Assembly: GCF_017301635.1 (NCBI RefSeq)
Contig: NZ_CP071091.1
Coordinates: 5,964,001-6,028,000, forward strand
Reading direction: 5' to 3'
Origin: Myxococcus landrumus
GTDB taxonomy: Bacteria; Myxococcota; Myxococcia; Myxococcales; Myxococcaceae
DNA: 64,000 nucleotides
In this document: in pieces, positions 3-10,175 of the stretch
Position numbering within the stretch: the stretch's first letter is position 1
Layout: every line of letters starts with the position of its first letter
Program-made: the position numbers and the translations under genes
The notes under the pieces: model-generated
What the model was told of the DNA's origin: nothing
The model's input: the letters and a program-made list of their open reading frames with translations, nothing else
The model's database searches: none

Positions 3-1436
3 TACTGGGTCGGAACCCAGTCGCTGCGCATCCAGGCCCCCCAGGGAGAGCACCTCCTCCCCGTGAAGGTGTTGCCTCGCAAGACCAAGCTCCAGGGCGA
101 GACCTGGGCACATCTGCTCAGTGACCTGGACGCATGGATGCCCGGAGCCACGGTAGGCCAGGAGGGAGGCCGGCATGGCAACGTGGGACACCAGGGCTGC
201 GACATCGCCGGAGTGGCCTCGGTGCTCGGAGATCTGGTGCCCGCGTTCGAGGCCGCGCTGACGTCCGTGCTCCGCGCCCCCAAGGAACACTCGGTCGAAC
301 ACTGGACCGAGGTTCCCATCCACTCGGTCAAACAAGCAGACCGGGGAACCTTGCGCTGGCTCGCGAGCCATCCGAACACCTACCAAGGTGTCCGCGGATA
401 CGCGGAGAGCTTCGGCACGGGCCCTGTCCCACGAGTCCCCAGTCGCGCCTGGCAAGGTGCCCTGGACCACGCGGCCAATCGTCACGTCGCGTGGCTGACG
501 CGGCAGGTGGTGCTCAAGCTCCGAGACACCGTGGAGTGTGTCCAGCGAGGAATCAAGAAAGCGAAGTCGCTGGACCCTGACCTGAAGCACTGGTGCGAGG
601 CGAGAGTCCAACGACTGACCCAGGGGGCCCAAGACATCGAGGCCCTCCTGTTCGAAACACCGCTGGGCACGATGACACCCGAGTACGCCTCGGACTCGGC
701 GATTCTCACGTTCGTCGACGACCCGCTCTACGCACGGGTCCACGCCTTCGCCCAGCTCTTCCTCGCACCTCGGTTCCGGCTCCCCGACGACGAGGCACTC
801 CTCGCCGCCCCCGTTCGGCCGTCCTATGAGCTCTACGAACTCTGGACGTTCCTCGCGTTGCGACGACTGCTGGCGGAGCTCCTCCCCAAGGCACAGTGGA
901 GTGAACGTCACACCGACTCGCTTCGACTCTTCGACAAGAAGCCTCGAGGTGCCAGCTACACCGCGCGATGGCAGGGCCACGGAACCCTGACCCTCTCCTT
1001 CAATCTCCCGTTCCCCGGCTTCCTCACGCAGGAGCGGAACCAGAGCGCGCACTGGAGCATCTCGAAAGCGAGGCGCCCGGACCTCGTCGTCACGTGGCAA
1101 CCCGACGTGGGCCGGGCACGCTGGCTGTGTCTCGATGCGAAGTACCGCACCGACCCTCAAGGCATCGCCGACGCCTTCGAGTCCGCTCACATCTACCGCG
1201 ACTCCTTGCGGTGGAGGGACATGGGAGAGCAGGGACGCTGCTCGGGCGCGGTGCTGCTCGTTCCCACCCGGCTCCCCCAGACGGAGCCCTGGTTCGAGAA
1301 GTCCTTCCGCGACGAGCATCACGTGGGCGTCTTCTGCCTGACGCCCGGGCAACCGCCGCCCACCGAGCTCATCGAGTGGCTCCGTCACACGCTCGCGCTG
1401 GAGCCCCTGGCTACTGAATCGACAGCAGGTGGATGA
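3..1436 (+). CDS. DUF2357-type PD-(D/E)XK nuclease-like protein, 5' end missing
   Basis: The frame is open from base 3 at the left edge, so the N-terminus lies outside the window. A GTG at 63 could start it, but the sequence before it reads as ordinary coding sequence. The visible 477 residues resemble DUF2357 proteins, a family often paired with McrB-like AAA ATPases in restriction-like loci. The C-terminal half shows a PD-(D/E)XK nuclease signature: RRPDLVV near base 1075 and LCLDAKYR at about 1126-1149, supplying the Asp and the D-A-K metal-site triad. Its last 26 bases overlap the 3' end of the convergent YeiH-family gene. An ATPase partner, if any, would be left of the window, so a defence role is inference. 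Family assignment is moderate; the nuclease motif is clear. Confidence 0.7.
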   Translation, partial: YWVGTQSLRIQAPQGEHLLPVKVLPRKTKLQGETWAHLLSDLDAWMPGATVGQEGGRHGNVGHQGCDIAGVASVLGDLVPAFEAALTSVLRAPKEHSVEHWTEVPIHSVKQADRGTLRWLASHPNTYQGVRGYAESFGTGPVPRVPSRAWQGALDHAANRHVAWLTRQVVLKLRDTVECVQRGIKKAKSLDPDLKHWCEARVQRLTQGAQDIEALLFETPLGTMTPEYASDSAILTFVDDPLYARVHAFAQLFLAPRFRLPDDEALLAAPVRPSYELYELWTFLALRRLLAELLPKAQWSERHTDSLRLFDKKPRGASYTARWQGHGTLTLSFNLPFPGFLTQERNQSAHWSISKARRPDLVVTWQPDVGRARWLCLDAKYRTDPQGIADAFESAHIYRDSLRWRDMGEQGRCSGAVLLVPTRLPQTEPWFEKSFRDEHHVGVFCLTPGQPPPTELIEWLRHTLALEPLATESTAGG

Positions 1437-2505
1437 GGCCCCAGGCCGACAGCGCCAGGGCCGCGAAGCCCACGAGGCCCGCGTAGACCACTCGCATGCC
1501 CGCGCGGCGCAGCATGCTGATGTGCGTCCCCAAGCCCATCGCCCCCATGGCCATCACCATGAGAAAGACGCTCGCCGTGGAGAGCGCGGCCTTCCCCGCC
1601 GCCGGCACCACACCCACCGAGCCGAGCACTCCCACCGCGAGGAACCCCAACACGAACCACGGAATCGGCGGCTCCTTCCACGAGTAGCGCACCTTCCCGC
1701 CCGCCCCTGAGACCAACCCCAGCACCACGAGCGCCGGTGCCAGCAGCACCACCCGCGTCAACTTCACCAGCGTCCCCAAATCCCCCGCCGAGGTCCCCCA
1801 GGTGAACGCCGCCGCCATCACCTGCGCCACCTCGTGCAACGTGGCCCCGGAGAGAATCGCGAGCTGCGCCGTGGTCAACCCCAGCAGCGGCCCCACGAAG
1901 ACGTAGAACAGCACGCCCATCGTCCCCAGAATCCCGCACAGCCCCACCGCCAGCGTGGTGTCCTCCTCCTCCGCGCGCGTCACGGAGCTCGCCGCCACCA
2001 CCGCGCTCGCACCACAGATGGACGTCCCCACCGCCAGCAGCGTCCCCAACTTCTCCGGCACACCGAAGCGCTGCGTCACCCACCGGATGCCCAGGATGCC
2101 GCCGACGATGACCGCCATCGCCAACACCAACACCCTCGGCCCCACCTTCGCCACGAGCGCGAAGTCCAGTCGCGCCCCCATCAGCACGATGCCCAACCGC
2201 AACACCGTGCGCGCCGAGTAGCGCTGCCCCTCCACCAACACCGAGGGAATCCCCGCCGCCATCGTCGAGCGCAGCGCGATGCCCACCAACAGCGCCACCG
2301 TCAGAGGCCCCACCACCTTCAGCCCCGGCAACGTGGCGAGCCAATAGCTCCCCACCGCCAGGCCCGCCGCCAGCACCAACCCCGGCAGACGCCTCCGCCA
2401 AACCTCCCCCGTTGAGGGCGAAGCAGCAGGTGTCACCGGGCTCGCCGCCGCACCCCCGCCAGGCGCGGAGACCGTCGTGTCGGGTGTCGCTAGTGGAGCA
2501 GTCAT
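1411..2505 (-). CDS. YeiH/UPF0324-family putative sulfur oxyanion exporter
   Basis: A polytopic membrane protein of 364 residues with about nine to ten hydrophobic segments after a 35-residue Pro/Ala/Ser-rich cytosolic leader. The segment GTSICGASAVVA is the hallmark of the YeiH (UPF0324) family, whose members are annotated as putative sulfate exporters. It is the last gene of the minus-strand sulfur cluster, 67 bases after the ETHE1-like dioxygenase, so exporting sulfite or sulfate made by that enzyme is a sensible but unproven role. The ATG at 2505 is the only start that precedes the hydrophobic core without extending into the neighbour; no strong ribosome binding site is visible. The gene overlaps the convergent nuclease-like gene by 26 bases. 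Confidence 0.85.
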   Translation of the reverse strand: MTAPLATPDTTVSAPGGGAAASPVTPAASPSTGEVWRRRLPGLVLAAGLAVGSYWLATLPGLKVVGPLTVALLVGIALRSTMAAGIPSVLVEGQRYSARTVLRLGIVLMGARLDFALVAKVGPRVLVLAMAVIVGGILGIRWVTQRFGVPEKLGTLLAVGTSICGASAVVAASSVTRAEEEDTTLAVGLCGILGTMGVLFYVFVGPLLGLTTAQLAILSGATLHEVAQVMAAAFTWGTSAGDLGTLVKLTRVVLLAPALVVLGLVSGAGGKVRYSWKEPPIPWFVLGFLAVGVLGSVGVVPAAGKAALSTASVFLMVMAMGAMGLGTHISMLRRAGMRVVYAGLVGFAALALSAWGLIHLLSIQ

Positions 2506-2572: not shown

Positions 2573-3283
2573 TCACGCCTTCACGGAGGGCATCCGCGCC
2601 GGCTCGACCACCCCACAGGCGAGGTTCGCGGGCACGGACACGGCGAGCTTCTTGGGCGGCGGAAGCTGGAGGTTGTTCATCAACTGGATGAAGTCCTCAC
2701 GGCTCCGCCCCGCCGCGCGCGCGTTGTGGCGCTTCTCTTCGTCGATGGTGCTCACCGAGTGCCCCTTGTAGTCATGGCCGGGATACACCAGGGTGCCATC
2801 AGGAAGTTCGAAGAGGACTCGCGTGATGGAGTCATGCAGCGCGCTCGCACTCCCATTCTGGAAGTCCGTCCGCCCCGCCGAGCGCACCAGCAGGGTGTCA
2901 CCCGTGAAGACCCGGTCCGCCATCCGGTAGCTCACGCTGTCATCGGTGTGGCCCGGCGTCTCGAGCACCTCGAGCCGAAGCTCGCCCAGTTCGACCACGT
3001 CACCGTGTGACACCTGCCGGTCGACACACGGCGCCCCCAGGCGGCTCGCCACGACCCGTGCGCCCGTGCGCTGCCTCAGCACTCCCGCCGCTGTCACATG
3101 GTCGGCGTGGACGTGGGTCTCCAGCACGAAGCGCAGCGTGAGCCCCAGCTCCGTGAGCAGCTTGATGTCGCGGTCCACCTGCTCGAACACGGGGTCGATG
3201 AGCAACGCCTCACGCGTCCGCTCGTCCGCCAGCAGGTAGGTGTACGTCGAGGATTCGGAGTCAAAGAGTTGTCGGAAGAGCAT
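2573..3283 (-). CDS. ETHE1-type persulfide dioxygenase (metallo-beta-lactamase fold)
   Basis: This 236-residue protein has the length and motifs of ETHE1 enzymes, which oxidise glutathione persulfide to sulfite with O2 and one iron. Visible are the metal motif THVHADH (about residues 56-62), the PGHTDDS histidine, the GDTLLVRSAGRTDFQ stretch that is diagnostic of ETHE1 among MBL proteins, and YPGHDY near the C-terminus. The frame extends upstream to 3493, but the ATG at 3283 has a good ribosome binding site (AGAAAGG, 8 bases before it) and gives the family N-terminus; the longer form adds a low-complexity Arg/Gly/Pro segment. It lies 47 bases after the SoxB-like gene and is probably on the same transcript. 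The product sulfite may leave through the YeiH-family neighbour. Confidence 0.92.
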   Translation of the reverse strand: MLFRQLFDSESSTYTYLLADERTREALLIDPVFEQVDRDIKLLTELGLTLRFVLETHVHADHVTAAGVLRQRTGARVVASRLGAPCVDRQVSHGDVVELGELRLEVLETPGHTDDSVSYRMADRVFTGDTLLVRSAGRTDFQNGSASALHDSITRVLFELPDGTLVYPGHDYKGHSVSTIDEEKRHNARAAGRSREDFIQLMNNLQLPPPKKLAVSVPANLACGVVEPARMPSVKA

Positions 3284-3330: not shown

Positions 3331-4929
3331 TTACTGGACCTGCTGGGTTCGCAGCACCTCCGGAAGGTCCTCGCCCACCGCGCGGCCCTCCAGCTCCGCC
3401 TGGAGACGAGGCTTGCCGGCGAGGAATCGACGCACCGCCTCGTGCGCATCCACTTCGAGGACACGCGGCTCCTGGATGCCCGGGATTCGGCACACCATGT
3501 CCGGAGCATCCCCTTCACGCTCACACGCCGTCACGGTGTAGAGCCGCTCCGCCTCCACCGGAACGCCGCCCACCTCCAACGCGAGGAGGCGCTGTCCCTT
3601 GGGCGCATCGGCCCTGAATCGCAGCGTCATCCCCGAGGGACGCGGCAACCACCCACCGAAGCGCTTCTCCGGGTCCTTCGCGAAGACGTTCTCCAGCTCC
3701 TGCTCCCAGAACGCCCGGAGCTGACGCCCGCTCACCTTCCCCGTCTTCAGCTTGTTCACGACGGGGAACATGTTCCACAGGTCCGCCTCGCGAACCGGCC
3801 CCGGCATCAGCGGCGTGCCGAAGCGGAAGCCGTTGGACAGCCCAATCTCCGTGCCGCCCGCGACCCGAATCGCATCCGCCAACACGTTGTCGAGCGGGTT
3901 CTCCACCACCGCGTAGCGCGCGAGCGTGACGTCGGTATGGCCCACGGGAGACGCCAGCTTCTCCTCATGCGGAGCCAGCGCCGCGTCCACCAGACGCGCC
4001 ACCTCGGGGTCCTCGGGGAAGCGCGAGGCGGTGAGCTCGATGAGCTCCCAGCGGCGGTCCACCACCTGGCCACCCTCCACCCACAAGTCCAACCGCCCGA
4101 GGAACGAGCCGAACGCTCCCGGCTCCACCACCCAGCTCCCGTTCTGCACCACGGGCTCATAGGTGCGCTCATGCGTGTCCGAGGACAGGTGCGCATCCAC
4201 CCCAGGAACCCGCGCCGCGAGCCCCACCGCCTTGGCCAACCCCACATGCGACATCAACAGCACCACCTGCGCGCCCTCGCGCTCGCGCACCTCTCGCACG
4301 AGCGAAGGCAGCTCCTCGGGACCGTCGTAGCGAAGGCCCTGGCTGTAGCCCGGTGGCTGACGGCGCGGAACGTCCGGGTCCGTGAACCCCACCACCGCGA
4401 CCTTCACCCCGCCCACCTGCTTCACCAGGTACGGCGGAAAGAGGCGCTCACCGCTGCGCGCATCCCGCAGGTTCGCGGCGAACAACGGATGCTTCATCTC
4501 CCGCGCACGCTCCCGCAACACAGAGGGGCCATACACCACCTCCCAGTTGCCCGGCACCGCGCCGTCCAGACCGAGCGCGTTGAGCGGCGCGATGAGCGCC
4601 AGGCCCTCGGTGAGCGCGGCCGCGCCCGAGCCCTGAATCGTGTCCCCCGCGTCGAGCACCAGCACGTCCCCGCCGCGCTCCGCGCGAATCCGCTGGATGG
4701 CGGCGGCCACTCGCGCGAAGCCTCCGGCCTCCTCGATGCGCTCCTGTCCATCCTTCCAGAAGAGCTCGGGATGAGCGCGGAGCTGGGCATGCAGGTCCGC
4801 GACATAGAGCACGGTGAGCTGCTGACGCGCGGAAGGCGTCGGGTCGACACCGGCCCGCGAGGTCGCACAGCCCGAGGCGATGGCCCACAGGACCAGACAC
4901 GCAGCGGGCGCGCGGAGGAGACGAATCAT
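3331..4929 (-). CDS. SoxB-like thiosulfohydrolase homologue, lipoprotein (5'-nucleotidase superfamily)
   Basis: A 532-residue calcineurin-type metallophosphoesterase with a C-terminal 5'-nucleotidase domain. The N-terminus is a lipoprotein signal ending at ASGC, so it is an envelope protein. Metal motif DLHAQL and GDTIQGSG are present. Two features separate it from true 5'-nucleotidases and match SoxB: the usual GNHEFD catalytic motif reads GNWEVVYG (catalytic His replaced by Trp), and the usual GGHSH motif reads SSDTHERT. The C-terminal GFRFGT also resembles SoxB. SoxB hydrolyses the sulfate group off a SoxYZ-bound sulfane. No soxA, X, Y, Z, C or D gene is visible here, so its substrate is uncertain. 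The ATG at 4929 follows AAGGTG, and an ECF-type promoter lies just upstream. Confidence 0.82.
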   Translation of the reverse strand: MIRLLRAPAACLVLWAIASGCATSRAGVDPTPSARQQLTVLYVADLHAQLRAHPELFWKDGQERIEEAGGFARVAAAIQRIRAERGGDVLVLDAGDTIQGSGAAALTEGLALIAPLNALGLDGAVPGNWEVVYGPSVLRERAREMKHPLFAANLRDARSGERLFPPYLVKQVGGVKVAVVGFTDPDVPRRQPPGYSQGLRYDGPEELPSLVREVREREGAQVVLLMSHVGLAKAVGLAARVPGVDAHLSSDTHERTYEPVVQNGSWVVEPGAFGSFLGRLDLWVEGGQVVDRRWELIELTASRFPEDPEVARLVDAALAPHEEKLASPVGHTDVTLARYAVVENPLDNVLADAIRVAGGTEIGLSNGFRFGTPLMPGPVREADLWNMFPVVNKLKTGKVSGRQLRAFWEQELENVFAKDPEKRFGGWLPRPSGMTLRFRADAPKGQRLLALEVGGVPVEAERLYTVTACEREGDAPDMVCRIPGIQEPRVLEVDAHEAVRRFLAGKPRLQAELEGRAVGEDLPEVLRTQQVQ

Positions 4930-4966: not shown

Positions 4967-4995
4967 GGACACCAGGCCCGACGTGCGAAGTTCCC
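4967..4995 (-). promoter_or_regulatory. ECF-type promoter of the SoxB-like gene
   Basis: On the minus strand GGGAAC (4995-4990) and GTGTCC (4972-4967) lie with their first bases 23 apart, so GGAAC and TGTCC are separated by exactly 18 bases. The same sequence pair at the same spacing occurs before the CcdA-thioredoxin gene and the ECF sigma gene. The site sits in the 100-base gap between the rhodanese and SoxB-like genes and would give a leader of about 30 bases. Promoter function is inferred from the shared pattern. Confidence 0.75.
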
Positions 4996-5029
4996 GCGCG
5001 GGATTCGCGGCCCACAGCGCACCGCGCCA

Positions 5030-5374
5030 TCACTCCCACGCCGACATGGGCCCGAGGTTGAGGACCTGCTGGAAGCCACGCTCCTTCAGCAGCGTCTCCG
5101 CGCGGGTGCTGCGCTTGCCACTGCGGCAATAGACCACCACGGGCGTCTCGGGCGAGCCGAGCTCCCCCAGCCGCTCGGAGAGCAGATCCACGGGGATGTT
5201 CAACGCACCGGGCAGGTGGCCCTCCGCGAACTCCTCCGGAGTGCGGACGTCCAGCAGCAGGGCGCCAGACTCCACCCACTTGTGGGCCTCGGCCCGGACT
5301 TCCGGCCGCTCGCGTGTACAAGCAACTCCCAGCACACCCGCGAGCACTGCGACAGCAACGAGAACGAGCTTCAT
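5030..5374 (-). CDS. rhodanese-domain lipoprotein
   Basis: A 114-residue single-domain rhodanese behind a lipoprotein signal peptide with lipobox GVAC at about residue 19. The active-site loop is CRSGKRS, with the persulfide-forming Cys, preceded by the DVRTPEEFAEGHLPGALNIP block typical of the family. It probably carries or transfers sulfane sulfur in the periplasm, much as PspE does. The ATG at 5374 gives the signal peptide; the frame upstream to 5476 does not look like coding sequence. It follows the CcdA-thioredoxin gene by 111 bases, a gap holding a UUCG-type hairpin, and precedes the SoxB-like gene, so substrate sharing with that cluster is likely. Confidence 0.88.
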   Translation of the reverse strand: MKLVLVAVAVLAGVLGVACTRERPEVRAEAHKWVESGALLLDVRTPEEFAEGHLPGALNIPVDLLSERLGELGSPETPVVVYCRSGKRSTRAETLLKERGFQQVLNLGPMSAWE

Positions 5375-5395
5375 GGCGTGACTCCAACCCGCGCC

Positions 5396-5413
5396 GGAGG
5401 CTCGAAAGCCTCC
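5396..5413 (-). other. intercistronic hairpin with UUCG loop
   Basis: A perfect 7-bp stem, GGAGGCT pairing with AGCCTCC, encloses TTCG when read on the minus strand. It lies between the CcdA-thioredoxin and rhodanese genes, 22 bases before the rhodanese start. No T-run follows, so it looks less like a terminator than an RNA-stability, processing or translation-modulating element. It is not followed by a new ECF-type promoter. Confidence 0.6.
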
Positions 5414-5485
5414 AGCAGGTGATGATTCAGCGGGGTGAGAGTCACGGAGGGGGCGAAAGGATTCACCCTCCTCCACGGCGGCCCA

Positions 5486-6685
5486 TCAGGTGCCAGCGCT
5501 CCCCTGCGGCTCCGTCGGCGCCCCCGACGGGAGGAGCCCGGCACAACGCACGCCGGCAATGGTCTCCAGCCCCTCACGGAGCGAGGTCAGGGGCTGCTCG
5601 CCCACTCGGCGCGCCACTTCCTGACCAGCACTGTCCAGGAAGAGGAACGTGGGCACACCTCGGACACCATGGCGGTTCGCGGCCTGCCGCCCCTCGGCGG
5701 TGCCGACATCCAGACGCAGGACGTCAACGCCCTCTCGCGAGCACACCTGCGCGGCCATCGCCACCACGGGCTCCATCCGCTGACAGACAGGGCAGCTCTG
5801 GCTCACGAACTCCACCATCGTCGGACGCTTGATGCCCGCCAGCACGGAGGGGGCGTCGCTCGACGGAACAAAGCCCTGCTCCGGAAGCGCACACGCGCCC
5901 TCCGACTCCGTGCCACACGCCGCGGCCTCCGCTGTCGTGGACCCAGCGGGTGCGGACGACTGCACGGGAGCGGCGACCTCCACCGCCTGGACCGACGGCA
6001 CCAGCTTCTGCAGCGAATCGGTGAAGAGCAGCACACCCACACCCACGAGCAGCACACCCGTGGCCATCTCGAACTTGCGGAGGTGACGCTTCGCGCGCTC
6101 CATCCACTTCAGCGCCAGGGGCGCGATGGCGGCCGTGAGCACCAAGGGGACGGACAGGCCCGCGGCATAGGTGCCCAGGTAGAGCGCGCCCATCAGCGGC
6201 TCGGAGGTGGAGGCGGCGGTGTACGTGAGCACCGCCCCGAGCACGGGGCCGATGCACGGCGTCCAGCCCAGCGCGAAGGCGCCACCGAACAAGAAGGCCC
6301 CCGCGACACTGCCACCCTTGCGCACGCGGTCCAGCCACGGCCGCGACTCCCGGTCCACCCAGGGCAGCTTGATGAGCCCCAGTTGCTTGAGCCCGAGCAG
6401 CAGCAGCGCGACGCCACCGAAGCGCAGGAGCCACTCCCGGTGCTCCGAGAGCGCCCCACCCACGGCGGTGGCCGCCATCCCCAGCGCGATGAACACCGTC
6501 GCGAGCCCCAACGAGAACGCCAGCGCCACGCCCCAGGGACGCCGCGCGGTGCCGCCCGTCTCTCGCAACTGCGACAGGGACACGCCCGCGAGGAACGACA
6601 GATAGAAGGGGACCAGCGGGAGGATGCAGGGGGACAGGAACGTCAGCAGCCCCGCGAGGAAGATGCCGGGAAGGCCGAGGCTCAT
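5486..6685 (-). CDS. CcdA/DsbD-type transmembrane electron carrier fused to a thioredoxin domain
   Basis: A 399-residue fusion. The first 230 residues are a CcdA-like membrane domain with the two redox cysteines in SPCILPLVP (first helix) and GWTPCIGPVLG (fourth helix). A linker leads to a thioredoxin domain with active site CPVC and the cis-Pro segment GVPTFLF. It should pass reducing power from cytoplasmic thioredoxin across the membrane to periplasmic thiols or persulfides, like a DsbD without its N-terminal domain. The ATG at 6685 is chosen because GGGAGG lies 6 bases before it; the frame extends 14 codons further without a binding site. An ECF-type promoter precedes it, and the rhodanese follows, suggesting it keeps envelope sulfur carriers reduced. 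Confidence 0.92.
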   Translation of the reverse strand: MSLGLPGIFLAGLLTFLSPCILPLVPFYLSFLAGVSLSQLRETGGTARRPWGVALAFSLGLATVFIALGMAATAVGGALSEHREWLLRFGGVALLLLGLKQLGLIKLPWVDRESRPWLDRVRKGGSVAGAFLFGGAFALGWTPCIGPVLGAVLTYTAASTSEPLMGALYLGTYAAGLSVPLVLTAAIAPLALKWMERAKRHLRKFEMATGVLLVGVGVLLFTDSLQKLVPSVQAVEVAAPVQSSAPAGSTTAEAAACGTESEGACALPEQGFVPSSDAPSVLAGIKRPTMVEFVSQSCPVCQRMEPVVAMAAQVCSREGVDVLRLDVGTAEGRQAANRHGVRGVPTFLFLDSAGQEVARRVGEQPLTSLREGLETIAGVRCAGLLPSGAPTEPQGSAGT

Positions 6686-6743
6686 CGCGAACCTCCCACA
6701 CCATGGCGGAACAACCGCTGATGACAATCACTCATGTGCGCGA

Positions 6744-6772
6744 GGACACGGCGGGAACCCTCGAAAGTTCCC
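6744..6772 (-). promoter_or_regulatory. ECF-type promoter of the CcdA-thioredoxin gene
   Basis: GGGAAC (6772-6767, minus strand) and GTGTCC (6749-6744) have first bases 23 apart, identical in sequence and spacing to the sites before the SoxB-like and ECF sigma genes. The predicted start is about 50 bases ahead of the ATG at 6685. The -35 is also half of an inverted repeat, with GGGAAC on the plus strand at 6753-6758, which may or may not be relevant. Confidence 0.75.
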
Positions 6773-6790
6773 GGCCACTCGACGAAAGGT

Positions 6791-7558
6791 TCAAGGAGAC
6801 AAGCGAGCCAGGGCCTCGAGAAGCACCGGTGACTCCGCCTCCGAAACAGCCAGGGCCGCGTGCCCGCTTCCCCGAGGAGCCACACAGATGCGCTCGCCCA
6901 CCGGCCCTTGCGTGCAGCGAGTCCCATCCCCCGCGAAGCGCGCGGCGGCCTTCGCCACGGGAGACCCCGGCTCCGGCAGGAAGAGGGTCATCGCCTTGTC
7001 TCCATGCCTGTACAGCAGCGAGGCGGAGACCTCTCCATGCAGCTGGCAGCGGCGAGCGCCCAGGAGCTCCGCGCCCGGCACCGACGGCACATCCACCTCG
7101 TAGCCGACCTCCCGCTCCACCCACGCCTTGACGTCCTCCGGATTCGAGGACTCGAACTCGCACGGCGTCGCGCGCGAGAACGCCTTGAGGTGGTGCCGCT
7201 CCAGGTCCATCGCGAGGGCGTCGTTCATGCCCCCCGCGAGGCCCGCTCGCGACGTCCAGAACACCCCGACGGCCAGCAGCGCCGCGATGGCGCCTCCCGC
7301 CGCCAACGTGCCTCGGGAGAAGGCCCAGCGAGGGCGCGCGGCCAACCGGTCGACCCGCGCCTTCAGCTCGGGCGGCACTCCCGCGTCCACGGCCTGCGCC
7401 CTCAGCGCGACGCGCAGCGAGTCAAAGCGAGCCATCTCCCGGGCACAGCCCGCGCATCGCTCGAGGTGCTGCTCCAGGGCGCGCTGCTCATGAGCCTCAC
7501 TCTCCCCGTCGAACCCCGCGGAGAGCCGCTCCTGCCACTCCAGGCTACAGGCTTCCAT
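6791..7558 (-). CDS. zinc-binding (ZAS) anti-sigma factor, membrane-spanning
   Basis: This 255-residue protein has an N-terminal zinc-finger anti-sigma module with the H-x3-C-x2-C motif HLERCAGC near residue 30, one transmembrane helix (about residues 84-100) and a C-terminal domain of about 150 residues that should face the periplasm. ZAS proteins bind the cognate ECF sigma factor and release it on a signal, often a thiol-reactive one. The ATG at 7558 lies inside the end of the sigma gene (14-base overlap), typical of a translationally coupled sigma/anti-sigma pair. The sulfur genes under the shared promoter motif make thiol oxidation or persulfide a reasonable signal, but that is inference. 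Confidence 0.9.
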   Translation of the reverse strand: MEACSLEWQERLSAGFDGESEAHEQRALEQHLERCAGCAREMARFDSLRVALRAQAVDAGVPPELKARVDRLAARPRWAFSRGTLAAGGAIAALLAVGVFWTSRAGLAGGMNDALAMDLERHHLKAFSRATPCEFESSNPEDVKAWVEREVGYEVDVPSVPGAELLGARRCQLHGEVSASLLYRHGDKAMTLFLPEPGSPVAKAAARFAGDGTRCTQGPVGERICVAPRGSGHAALAVSEAESPVLLEALARLSP

Positions 7559-8063
7559 GTGCCTTCTCCTTCTCGAGGACCTCGAGCATCGCCAGCCGCG
7601 CCCTGGCCAGACGTGAGCGCACCGTCCCCACGGGGCAGCCCTGCACCTGGGCAATCTCCTCGTAGCTCAGCTCCTCGACTTCCCTCAGCCACAGCGCATC
7701 GCGCCAGTCCGGGGCCAGCGAGTCCAACGCCTTCCGCATGCCCGCGCTGAGCGAGCGCGCCTGCAGCTCCGCTTCCAGGTCCGAGAAGGGCTCCGCGACG
7801 TCCTTCCCCAACCCACCCTCCAGCACCTCCAGCCGAGGCCGCAGCCCTCGGCGGGAGTTGAGGTACACGGTGCGCTGGACGGCGAGCAGCCAGCCCTTGA
7901 GGCGCTCGGGGTCCCTCACCTCGCCCCGCCGCTCCAGGGCGCGCGCCACCGTCTCCTGGACCAGGTCATCCGCCTCCGCGGAACTGCCCGTCAGCCGACG
8001 GCCCACCCGTCGCAGGGCAGGCAGGTGCTCCAAGGCACGTTCGATGAAGGACCGGGGACTCAC
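7545..8063 (-). CDS. ECF sigma factor (autoregulated, controls the adjacent sulfur genes)
   Basis: An RpoE-like extracytoplasmic-function sigma factor. Region 2 is seen in AEADDLVQETVARALE and the GWLLAVQRTVYLN helix; region 4 in LSYEEIAQVQGCPVGTVRSR. Length is about 172 residues, normal for the family. The frame can start at GTG 8078, but the predicted promoter -10 (8078-8073) covers that codon. The transcript should begin near 8066, so I place the start at the in-frame GTG 8063, giving a nearly leaderless message; only five N-terminal residues are lost. The stop overlaps the anti-sigma start. Three promoters of one design, including its own, suggest it drives itself, the CcdA-thioredoxin gene and the SoxB-like gene. 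Confidence 0.92.
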   Translation of the reverse strand: MSPRSFIERALEHLPALRRVGRRLTGSSAEADDLVQETVARALERRGEVRDPERLKGWLLAVQRTVYLNSRRGLRPRLEVLEGGLGKDVAEPFSDLEAELQARSLSAGMRKALDSLAPDWRDALWLREVEELSYEEIAQVQGCPVGTVRSRLARARLAMLEVLEKEKAHGSL

Positions 8064-8072
8064 GTCCACCGG

Positions 8073-8101
8073 GGACACATCGGCCGCACCGAAAAGTTCC
8101 C
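8073..8101 (-). promoter_or_regulatory. ECF-type promoter of the sigma factor gene (autoregulation)
   Basis: GGGAAC (8101-8096, minus strand) and GTGTCC (8078-8073) have first bases 23 apart, matching the two other sites in this cluster. The -10 overlaps the first possible start codon of the sigma gene, arguing for a start further downstream. Confidence 0.72.
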
Positions 8102-8140: not shown

Positions 8141-8179
8141 AAAAGAGAAAGGGCCCTCGAGGAGTTCCTCAAGGGCCCT
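8141..8179 (-). terminator. rho-independent terminator of tRNA-Phe
   Basis: Read on the minus strand, AGGGCCCT (8179-8172) pairs with AGGGCCCT (8157-8150), extended by a GAGG/CCTC pair, and is followed by the T-rich tract TTCTCTTTT. It lies 22 bases after the 3' end of the tRNA gene. Confidence 0.85.
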
Positions 8180-8360: not shown

Positions 8361-9155
8361 TTACGCCGCCCGCGGCATCGCCTCCGCGTCCCAGGGCGTC
8401 AGACTCGCGGTGAGCCTGCGCTTCAGCTTCGCCCTCAGGCCCTGTTCGATCTGCCGGATACGCACCGCCGTCACCCCGAAGCGGCGCGCCAGCAGCTCCG
8501 CGCTGGCCCCCTCCTCCACCAGCATCCGCTCCTCCACGAGCGCCCGCTCCCGAGCGTCCAGTTCCGGCCATGCCGCCTCCACGCTCGCCCGCAGCCTCGC
8601 CGCCCACTGGGCCTGGTCCACCACGTCCTCCTGCGAGGCCTCGTTCCCCTCCAGCACCTCCAGCCGCGTCACCTCCCCGTCCTGCGTCACCGGCGCGTCC
8701 AGCGACAAGTCCCGGGCCAGCGACTCCGACGCCTTGGCCACGTCCTCCTCCTTCTTGCCCAGCGCATCCGCCAGCCGGCGCACCACCTCCGGGTGACCCT
8801 CCCCCCACCGGGCCTCCAGCCGCGCCCGCTCCCGCCTCAGCTGGAACACCACCCAGGGCGCGCGCCCACCCGCCATGCTCCAGTTGCGCCCGACGTACGC
8901 CCGGATGCGCGCCCGAATCCACTGGCTGGCGTACACCCCGAACGGAATCCCCCGGTCCTCGAACCGGCCGGCCGCCTCCATCAAGCCGACGTTGCCTTCA
9001 GCGACCAGCTCGTCCTGCGGCAAGCCCGTCCACCGGTATTTCCACGCCAGCCGTTCCACCAAATCGAGGTGCTCCCGCACTCGCGCCTCAACCACGGCGT
9101 CGGGAATCTCAAGCTCAGGGGACTCGCAGGACATGTTCTCCGTGACGGCTTCCAT
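8361..9155 (-). CDS. sigma-70 family factor, RpoH/group-3-like
   Basis: A 264-residue sigma factor, too long for an ECF factor and lacking region 1.1. Region 2 runs from LVERLAWKYRW through DELVAEGNVGLMEAAGRFE and the ASQWIRARIRAYV helix; region 4 is RERALVEERML to FGVTAVRIRQIEQGLRAKL. The overall plan is like RpoH or the extra group-3 sigma factors of myxobacteria that act in stress or development; I cannot tell which. The ATG at 9155 is chosen because GGAGG lies 6 bases upstream. It is divergent from the LysR gene and 87 bases ahead of tRNA-Phe. Confidence 0.88.
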   Translation of the reverse strand: MEAVTENMSCESPELEIPDAVVEARVREHLDLVERLAWKYRWTGLPQDELVAEGNVGLMEAAGRFEDRGIPFGVYASQWIRARIRAYVGRNWSMAGGRAPWVVFQLRRERARLEARWGEGHPEVVRRLADALGKKEEDVAKASESLARDLSLDAPVTQDGEVTRLEVLEGNEASQEDVVDQAQWAARLRASVEAAWPELDARERALVEERMLVEEGASAELLARRFGVTAVRIRQIEQGLRAKLKRRLTASLTPWDAEAMPRAA

Positions 9156-9223
9156 GGACCTCCTCCGATTCACCGCGGCAACACACTCGCCCGCGGACAC
9201 CCCAAGAGATAAGGCACCGGCAT

Positions 9224-9269: not shown

Positions 9270-10175
9270 ATGGACATGAGCTGGCTCAACTACCACCATC
9301 TCCTGTATTTCTGGACGGTTGCGCGGGCGGGAAGCATCGCCAAGGCGGGCGAGGAGCTTCACCTGGCCCAGCCGACCATCAGCAGCCAGCTCAAGCTGCT
9401 GGAGGAGTCGCTGGGCCACAAGCTCTTCGAGCGGCAGGGCCGCAAGCTGGTCCTCACGGACGTGGGCCGCACCGTCATGCGCTACGCGGACGAAATCTTC
9501 CGTCTGGGCAACGAGCTGAAGAACGTGGTCGCCGGCCTGCCCACGGGCCAGCAGCTCCGGCTCAACGTGGGCGTCCTCGACGTCATCCCCAAGCTGGTGG
9601 CCGAGCAGTTGCTCAAGCCCGCGCTCGAAGCGGGGCCGTCGCTGCGCATCATCTGCCGCGAAGGGCCGCTGCCCCAGCTGCTCGCCTCGCTCGCGCTGCA
9701 TGAGCTGGATGTGGTGCTCGCCGACGCGCCCAGCTCCGAGCCGGTCAGCGTCCGCTCCTTCAACCACTTGCTGGGCAAGTGCGGCGTGTCGTTCTTCGCC
9801 GCCAAGCAGCTGAGCCATCTCAAGAAGGACTTCCCGCGCTCCCTCGACGCCGCCCCCATGCTGCTCCCCTCGGACGAGTCCTCCGTGCGCCGCTCGCTGG
9901 ACCTCTGGTTCGAGCGACAGAACCTGCGCCCCCTCATCGCCGGAGACTTCGACGACAGCGCCCTGCTCCAGGCCTTCGGGCAGAGCGGCCACGGCGTCTT
10001 CGCCCTGCCCTCCGTCATCGAGTCGCAGGTGGAGCGCGACTACAACTGCTCCGTCATTGGCCGCACCGACGAAATCGAGACGTGCTTCTACGCCATCACC
10101 GTCGAGCGCCGCCTGCGCCACCCCGCCGTCGTCGCCATCGCCGAGGCGGCTCGCTCGCAAATCTTCAGCGTCTGA
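9270..10175 (+). CDS. NhaR-like LysR-family transcriptional regulator
   Basis: A 301-residue LysR-type regulator. The N-terminal winged helix-turn-helix has the NhaR-like pattern LNYHHLLYFWTVARAGS, then AKAGEELHLAQPTISSQLK and KLFERQGRKLVLTDVG. The remainder is an effector-binding domain. In enterobacteria NhaR senses Na+ and activates a Na+/H+ antiporter, but no antiporter is next to it here, so the target is unknown. ATG 9270 is taken as the start; ATG 9276 is equally possible and neither has a clear ribosome binding site. It is divergent from the sigma gene and converges on the amidohydrolase gene with an 18-base gap. Confidence 0.88.
   Translation: MDMSWLNYHHLLYFWTVARAGSIAKAGEELHLAQPTISSQLKLLEESLGHKLFERQGRKLVLTDVGRTVMRYADEIFRLGNELKNVVAGLPTGQQLRLNVGVLDVIPKLVAEQLLKPALEAGPSLRIICREGPLPQLLASLALHELDVVLADAPSSEPVSVRSFNHLLGKCGVSFFAAKQLSHLKKDFPRSLDAAPMLLPSDESSVRRSLDLWFERQNLRPLIAGDFDDSALLQAFGQSGHGVFALPSVIESQVERDYNCSVIGRTDEIETCFYAITVERRLRHPAVVAIAEAARSQIFSV

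Follow-up and report, generated by a model that had tools for sequence, protein, structure and literature searches.

In a 64,000-nucleotide stretch of the Myxococcus landrumus genome (contig NZ_CP071091.1, positions 5,964,001 to 6,028,000; referred to below as the window), we characterized three promoter-like sites of one design that precede a gene for an extracytoplasmic function (ECF) sigma factor and two groups of sulfur- and thiol-related genes. Comparison of genomes indicates that these sites are almost certainly promoters of this sigma factor. We further consider it very likely that the sigma factor, encoded at positions 7545 to 8063 of the minus strand, itself reads all three sites and would thereby control its own gene in addition to two further operon promoters. 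In our best reading, the genes constitute an autoregulated ECF system that responds to periplasmic reactive-sulfur or thiol stress, the signal being suggested by the gene content.

Each site has the form GGGAACTT-N15-GTGTCC (the exact site) on the minus strand. Site 1 (8073..8101), with the –35 box GGGAACTT at 8101-8094 and the –10 box GTGTCC at 8078-8073, is located before the sigma gene, a position at which relatives also have sites; site 2 (6744..6772) is the putative promoter of a gene for a CcdA-thioredoxin fusion and of the rhodanese gene that follows it; and site 3 (4967..4995) is that of a SoxB-like gene. An earlier note on this DNA had reported these sites at 8101-8073, 6772-6744, and 4995-4967, with the first bases of the two boxes 23 apart and with unrelated spacers; the positions proved to be exact, and the spacers were found to differ. 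The sites all fall in intergenic DNA: site 1 is downstream of a terminator-like hairpin that follows tRNA-Phe, the first base of site 2 is 18 bases past the stop codon of the anti-sigma gene, and site 3 is between the rhodanese and SoxB-like genes. The hairpin (8150..8179, minus strand) has a 13-pair stem, the longest among the four terminator-like patterns that 8 kb contained, against 3.1 expected, and its position between tRNA-Phe (8273-8200, minus strand) and site 1 suggests that the sigma gene relies on its own promoter.

The number of exact sites expected in the window was 0.00 (100 dinucleotide shuffles). The earlier note had proposed a genome-wide pattern search, and the motif was not frequent: across all 10,367,529 bases (10.37 Mb) of the genome, GGGAACTTN14-18GTGTCC matched the three window sites and nothing further, with one match for the same pattern read backwards. 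A relaxed form of the site, GGGAACYY-N15-GTGTC, yielded six matches: the three window sites, one before an unlinked DsrE gene outside the window (GGGAACTC-N15-GTGTCC at G000:C1:1737704, where G000 denotes the home genome and codes of the form G0xx or G1xx its relatives), and two others with no sulfur gene seen downstream. We agree with the earlier note that no such pair of boxes precedes the rhodanese, ETHE1-family, or YeiH-family genes. These three genes trail another member of the set by 111, 47, and 67 bases, respectively, and with such short gaps, transcription continuing from sites 2 and 3 would cover them.

We determined the distribution of the sites in a sample of 145 genomes of the order, which are related and therefore not independent. 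Orthologs of the anti-sigma factor, defined by an E value of 1.8e-24 or better (the best match of the next genome was 4.5e-14), were present in 27 of the 145 genomes, and the sigma gene adjoins the anti-sigma gene in all 27, with the contigs of G019 and G021 ending inside the latter gene. Exact sites numbered 33 and were spread across 16 of these 27 sigma-positive genomes, with none in the other 118 (Fisher's test by genome, p = 1.7e-14, kinship between genomes ignored); the corresponding counts for other spacings (N14, N16-18) were 3 and 10. The relaxed motif had 76 matches in 25 of the 27 sigma-positive genomes, compared with five for the backwards-read pattern. Of the 76, 54 lay no more than 6 kb from the anti-sigma match; the other 22 were farther away or on another contig. 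The latter comprised two that belong to clusters split between contigs (G019 and G021:C4), 14 without an assigned sulfur gene, and six before thiol or sulfur genes, namely those for CcdA-thioredoxin (G116, G117), DsrE (G000, G112), DoxX (G021), and a lipoprotein (G098). Conservation in relatives, which the earlier note had named as a check, was thus apparent as retention of the sites together with the sigma/anti-sigma pair. A search of plasmids with the anti-sigma sequence gave no match; the sigma sequence matched ECF relatives in 838 records, with identities of 34-41% in the 40 listed.

The two boxes also emerged from alignments blind to the motif, for which upstream regions in 22 loci were picked by gene position and aligned without reference to it. 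Conservation of GGGAAC was 1.0 for the sigma gene (n = 20), 0.97 for the SoxB-like gene (n = 18), and 0.92 for the CcdA gene (n = 13), and that of GTGTC was 1.0, 0.99, and 0.92, respectively, compared with 0.64, 0.74, and 0.74 for columns outside the site and spacer. GGGAAC was the top hexamer for the sigma and SoxB-like genes and among the best for the CcdA gene, for which the start codon ranked first. The sigma start codon lies 8-10 nucleotides past GTGTCN in 22 of 25 loci (the exceptions being G122, G143, and G144), and each of the 13 CcdA loci examined has an ATG exactly 8 nucleotides past it; outside these 13, the distance is longer (for example, in G093, G013, G014, G019, and G021). In the window's group and in G063, this ATG opens a mini open reading frame of 17 codons (6682..6735, minus strand), which in the window starts 8 nucleotides after GTGTCC and whose stop codon overlaps the CcdA start (ATGA); its length is identical in G000, G110, G112, G113, and G063. 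Start codons placed 8-10 nucleotides after GTGTCN suggest leaderless mRNAs, with transcription predicted to begin near the first base of the codon, and the sigma mRNA is likely leaderless as judged from this spacing.

Target genes were then compared between genomes with and without the sigma factor. CcdA-thioredoxin relatives were detected in 25 of the 145 genomes at E 1e-30, although in G143 and G144 only the CcdA part was matched. In the 250 bases upstream of these genes, a perfect relaxed site was present in 17 of 19 sigma-positive genomes and in none of six sigma-less ones; the remaining two sigma-positive genomes (G143, G144) have a site with one mismatch, and the nearest sigma-less case, also with one mismatch, is G025, whose assembly is 80% complete. 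SoxB-like matches were found in 26 genomes, of which 23 were retained after removal of G013, G014, and G082, whose 34-35% matches look like paralogs. A perfect relaxed site precedes the SoxB-like gene in 17 of 19 sigma-positive genomes, with no perfect site in G063 and one mismatch in G144, and in none of the four sigma-less genomes (G044, G061, G103, and G100, the match in G100 being partial). The –10 box and most of the spacer are retained in place in G061 and G103, with GGGAACTT changed to GCGAGCCT or GCGAGCCG; these upstream regions are decayed sites with an altered –35 box. The dioxygenase, YeeE-pair, SoxB, and DsrE genes are still together in G061 and G044, and the sigma and anti-sigma genes are missing. 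When the 10 genomes that bear CcdA or SoxB genes and lack the anti-sigma factor were searched for the sigma factor, the best-scoring match in each was 36-39% identical, compared with 99% in the sigma factor's own genome.

Relocated genes carry their own sites, as seen for CcdA-thioredoxin in G116 and G117 and for DsrE in G000 and G112. A DsrE gene is present in 17 of the 27 sigma-positive genomes, within approximately 7 kb of the anti-sigma gene in 13, unlinked in G000 and G112, and on another contig in G021 and G144. Upstream of the relocated CcdA gene of G117 lies a diverged anti-sigma gene fragment (53% identity over residues 213-255; L086:5044-5172, minus strand, on G117:C19), from which we conclude that the site moved with flanking DNA and stayed perfect as the remnant decayed. 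This piece is a trace of how the CcdA segment moved. The CcdA genes of G019 and G021, considered as further candidates for relocation, were rejected: they are divergent from the sigma gene on contigs that end in the anti-sigma gene, and their sites are cluster sites. The claim that the sites are promoters of the adjacent ECF sigma factor is thus supported by co-occurrence, by motif-blind conservation, by the sites of relocated genes, and by loss or decay in the absence of the sigma factor.

The sigma protein contains regions 2 and 4 only (Sigma70_r2 and r4 of Pfam) and scored 78.9 bits with TIGR02937 (cutoff, 42.9), which places it among ECF factors; its start codon is GTG at 8063 or an in-frame GTG at 8069. 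The anti-sigma factor (6791..7558, minus strand) consists of a zf-HC2 head (PF13490, over the cutoff), a predicted transmembrane segment, and a COOH-terminal domain with four cysteines. Together with its sigma neighbor, an HxxxCxxC motif present in all 25 aligned sequences that hold the NH2-terminal region identifies it as a ZAS-like protein, and all 27 sequences, including two truncated at contig ends, have the four cysteines (C133, C171, C215, and C225). A hydrophobic stretch in the alignment was read by eye as one membrane helix, and the COOH-terminal domain is presumably periplasmic. We obtained an AlphaFold model of medium confidence (mean pLDDT, the predicted local distance difference test, of 67). 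In this model, the COOH-terminal domain aligned best with the COOH-terminal domains of RseB/MucB (Z of 9.3 over 93 residues, 2.7 Å), which accounted for the top six VIA rows (Z of 8.9-9.3), and the zinc-finger head aligned with RsiW (Z of 6.5 over 56 residues). A Foldseek search with the model found nothing significant (best E of 0.039), Pfam gave no match to an RseB/MucB-type domain, and a sequence profile compared with solved structures likewise found nothing significant (best E of 0.47).

The genes around the sites are related to thiols and sulfur. Their minus-strand order is tRNA-Phe, hairpin, site 1, sigma factor, anti-sigma factor, site 2, CcdA-thioredoxin, rhodanese, site 3, SoxB-like protein, dioxygenase homolog, and YeiH-type protein. 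Site 2 is followed by a CcdA/DsbD membrane domain fused to a thioredoxin domain (5486..6685, minus strand; PF02683 and PF00085, over the cutoffs) and by a rhodanese with a lipoprotein-like signal (5030..5374, minus strand; PF00581, over the cutoff; lipobox identified by eye), which is likely co-transcribed with it. The protein behind site 3 (3331..4929, minus strand), a relative of SoxB thiosulfohydrolase and 5'-nucleotidase with a lipoprotein-like signal by eye, matched the SoxB structure 2wdc (E of 2.7e-50) and scored 275 bits with TIGR04486, below the cutoff of 550, so that we call it SoxB-like only; a search for SoxY gave no match in the four genomes searched, in which the control was likewise silent. 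The next gene (2573..3283, minus strand) encodes a homolog of type I persulfide dioxygenases of the ETHE1 family, its predicted activity being based on full-length homology both to human ETHE1 (4chl, E of 3.3e-63) and to 4YSB (4ysb_A, E of 4.6e-101), the structure of the Myxococcus xanthus persulfide dioxygenase (MxPDO) according to excerpts of PMC6060420. The metallo-hydrolase of the G117 cluster, which is divergent from a YeeE pair (matching Sulf_transp and DUF6691) and the sigma gene, matches 4YSB at every one of 233 residues, and the window dioxygenase is a clear homolog of it. The last gene (1411..2505, minus strand) encodes a YeiH-family membrane protein well over the PF03601 cutoff that scored 163.5 bits with TIGR00698, below the YeiH cutoff of 232.6.

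Several observations concern these gene families in relatives. The DoxX protein behind the relaxed site of G021 carries a DsrE-like tail, and the lipoprotein behind that of G098 looks thioredoxin-fold-like by eye, with a Pfam AhpC-TSA score of 16.3 bits (cutoff, 26). The frame of the latter protein (L089:3695-4265, on G098:C277) contains a TGA at 3942-3944 in the context WVPG-TGA-SSC, a UxxC motif, and the G098 genome contains a tRNA-Sec over its cutoff; with weak Pfam support for the fold, the lipoprotein is possibly a selenoprotein. G098 also has an extra relaxed site 96 bases before a YeeE-type gene (L047:1411, reversed orientation), and its transport genes may join the regulon through this site. 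In L041, L046, and L050 (G069, G071, and G045; reversed orientation), the frame from the ATG behind an intact CcdA-type site is only 75, 57, and 155 codons long, respectively; these are decayed CcdA genes.

The sites and their conservation, the coupling of the sites to the sigma gene, the target genes, and the cysteines led us to infer the following scheme. RNA polymerase with the ECF sigma factor would read the three sites, with site 1 driving autoregulated expression of the sigma and anti-sigma factors, site 2 that of CcdA-thioredoxin and rhodanese, and site 3 that of the SoxB-like protein, the persulfide dioxygenase homolog, and the YeiH-type membrane protein. The zinc-finger head of the anti-sigma factor would hold the sigma factor at the inner membrane, and the RseB-like four-cysteine domain would sense the periplasm. 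Oxidized or persulfidated sulfur species in the periplasm may modify the four cysteines and so free the sigma factor, a step to which we assign close to an even chance; the same applies to sulfane sulfur as the signal, which we hold to be only slightly less probable than its opposite. Release would occur by proteolysis or rearrangement. CcdA-thioredoxin would then supply the periplasm with reductant, rhodanese and DsrE would move sulfane sulfur, the dioxygenase would oxidize persulfide, and the products would be exported, with this output resetting the sensor.

Several findings weigh against this scheme. The exact site is missing in 11 of the 27 sigma-positive genomes, and 14 relaxed matches in these genomes lack an assigned sulfur gene, five of which were inspected (L087, L090, L092, L094, and L096) with no sulfur gene seen. 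The SoxB-like gene of G063 has no site of its own and follows the CcdA gene there. CcdA-thioredoxin has no match at E 1e-30 in eight of the 27 genomes and is in short or broken frames in G069, G071, and G045, and it is therefore not indispensable. The pLDDT of the anti-sigma model is only 67, and models without relatives commonly reach best Z values of 7 to 8. Finally, the signal is guessed from gene content, which metals, sulfite, and disulfide stress would also fit.

The best-surviving alternative retains the same sigma factor and promoters and takes the signal to be general disulfide or oxidant stress or metal stress (Cd, Cr, Cu, Hg), with the sulfur genes as a thiol-repair set; we regard it as a plausible minority view. 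CcdA, thioredoxin, or both beside a site constitute the target with the widest family range (including G013, G014, G019, G021, G122, G143, and G144), and, according to excerpts of PMC3511200, conserved cysteines mediate the response of SigmaF-NrsF of Caulobacter to Cr and Cd, with DoxX and a subunit of a sulfite oxidase among the targets of that system. The recurrence of persulfide dioxygenase, YeeE-type sulfur transport, rhodanese, and DsrE genes in the clusters argues against it. SigmaF-NrsF resembles the present system in its small regulon with DoxX and sulfur-type genes and in the importance of its anti-sigma cysteines, and differs from it in its promoter (GTAACC-N16-CGAA) and metal signal, as given in the same excerpts.

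The dioxygenase would yield sulfite, a product of ETHE1-family activity, which, like the similar promoters described below, counts in favor of a sulfite response with sulfite or thiosulfate as the signal, an explanation that we nonetheless consider unlikely. Its model would be the RpoE1/RpoE4 pair of Sinorhizobium meliloti (ECF26), the closest described system, which excerpts of PMC3511301, PMC6180224, and PMC6527743 present as responding to sulfite through GGGAAT-type boxes. As described there, RpoE1 and RpoE4 are, like the present factor as proposed here, autoregulated ECF proteins with few targets and a membrane anti-sigma factor that has a periplasmic COOH-terminal domain, and RpoE4 has sulfur oxidation genes beside it, as in the window. 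Their promoters combine a GGGAAT-type –35 box with a –10 box of CGTGTC or CGTC (for the rpoE1 operon, GGGAATA...CGTGTC in Table 1 of PMC6180224), similar to the sites described here, whereas the –35 box here is GGGAAC; their target is SorT, compared with CcdA-thioredoxin, rhodanese, SoxB-like protein, and DsrE here. No sulfite dehydrogenase was among the identified cluster genes. The ECF26 –35 sequence is GGAATA (excerpt of PMC6180224), and the upstream regions of sigma-positive genomes instead contain GGGAAC in 20 of 20 sigma, 17 of 19 CcdA, and 17 of 19 SoxB-like cases. Because of this difference, and because the window sigma factor is only 35% identical to RpoE6, the one ECF26 member compared (rather than RpoE1 or RpoE4), we did not file it as ECF26.

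It is highly improbable that a different ECF sigma factor uses the sites and that the adjacent one is a bystander: the genome does hold further ECF factors of up to 39% identity, yet each of the 10 sigma-less genomes has ECF relatives of 36-39% identity and lacks perfect sites. An origin by chance, rejected on the basis of the shuffles, the genome-wide count, and the 33 versus 0 exact sites across genomes, or by DNA copying has a negligible probability, given also that the three spacers differ and that conservation centers on the two boxes, even though either of two sites at relocated genes may be a copy: that of DsrE in G000 is similar to the spacer of SoxB promoters in relatives, and the CcdA gene of G117 moved with flanking DNA.

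Three features of the neighborhood and the records may be noted. A sigma-32-like gene beside the tRNA (8361-9200, minus strand), scoring under the cutoffs of the RpoH-type models listed, is a divergent second sigma factor near the ECF gene. A LysR-type regulator above the NhaR model cutoff is encoded at 9270-10175 (plus strand). The myxobacterial cluster is also present in record BNCN01000004.1 (L098), which bears the title Comamonas sp. KCTC 72670 and looks mislabeled.

SigR-RsrA is the thiol-oxidation sigma system of actinomycetes, with a cytosolic zinc anti-sigma factor and thioredoxin targets. The zinc anti-sigma factor and thioredoxin targets of the present system suggest the same homeostatic loop; unlike in cytosolic RsrA, the added cysteines here are in a domain behind the predicted membrane helix. 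In RseA-RseB control of sigmaE, RseB is a separate protein, whereas the RseB/MucB-like domain, as modeled here, would be part of the anti-sigma factor itself and holds four cysteines, a difference that extends to MucA-MucB. Among the titles listed from open-licence PMC literature, there was neither one on this myxobacterial system nor one on the regulation of MxPDO. CorE of M. xanthus, a copper-dependent ECF factor (excerpt of PMC3107203), is no match in kind.

The window system may, at odds clearly below even, be the first ECF system to sense persulfide or polysulfide directly, in which the four cysteines of the RseB-like domain would be persulfidated or cross-linked, CcdA-thioredoxin would strip them, and leaderless sigma and CcdA mRNAs would provide fast output. 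If so, direct sensing of sulfane sulfur would parallel, in the periplasm, the loop formed by SigR, RsrA, and thioredoxin. ECF sigma factors are numerous in myxobacteria, and to our knowledge the targets of only a few are known. For the factor described here, which occurs in relatives of M. xanthus, a genetic model, the promoter is defined, the regulon is small, and there is a candidate signal. The two sigma-less relatives with a decayed –35 box at a former target serve as natural loss experiments, and the system would tie a structurally solved persulfide dioxygenase to its regulator.

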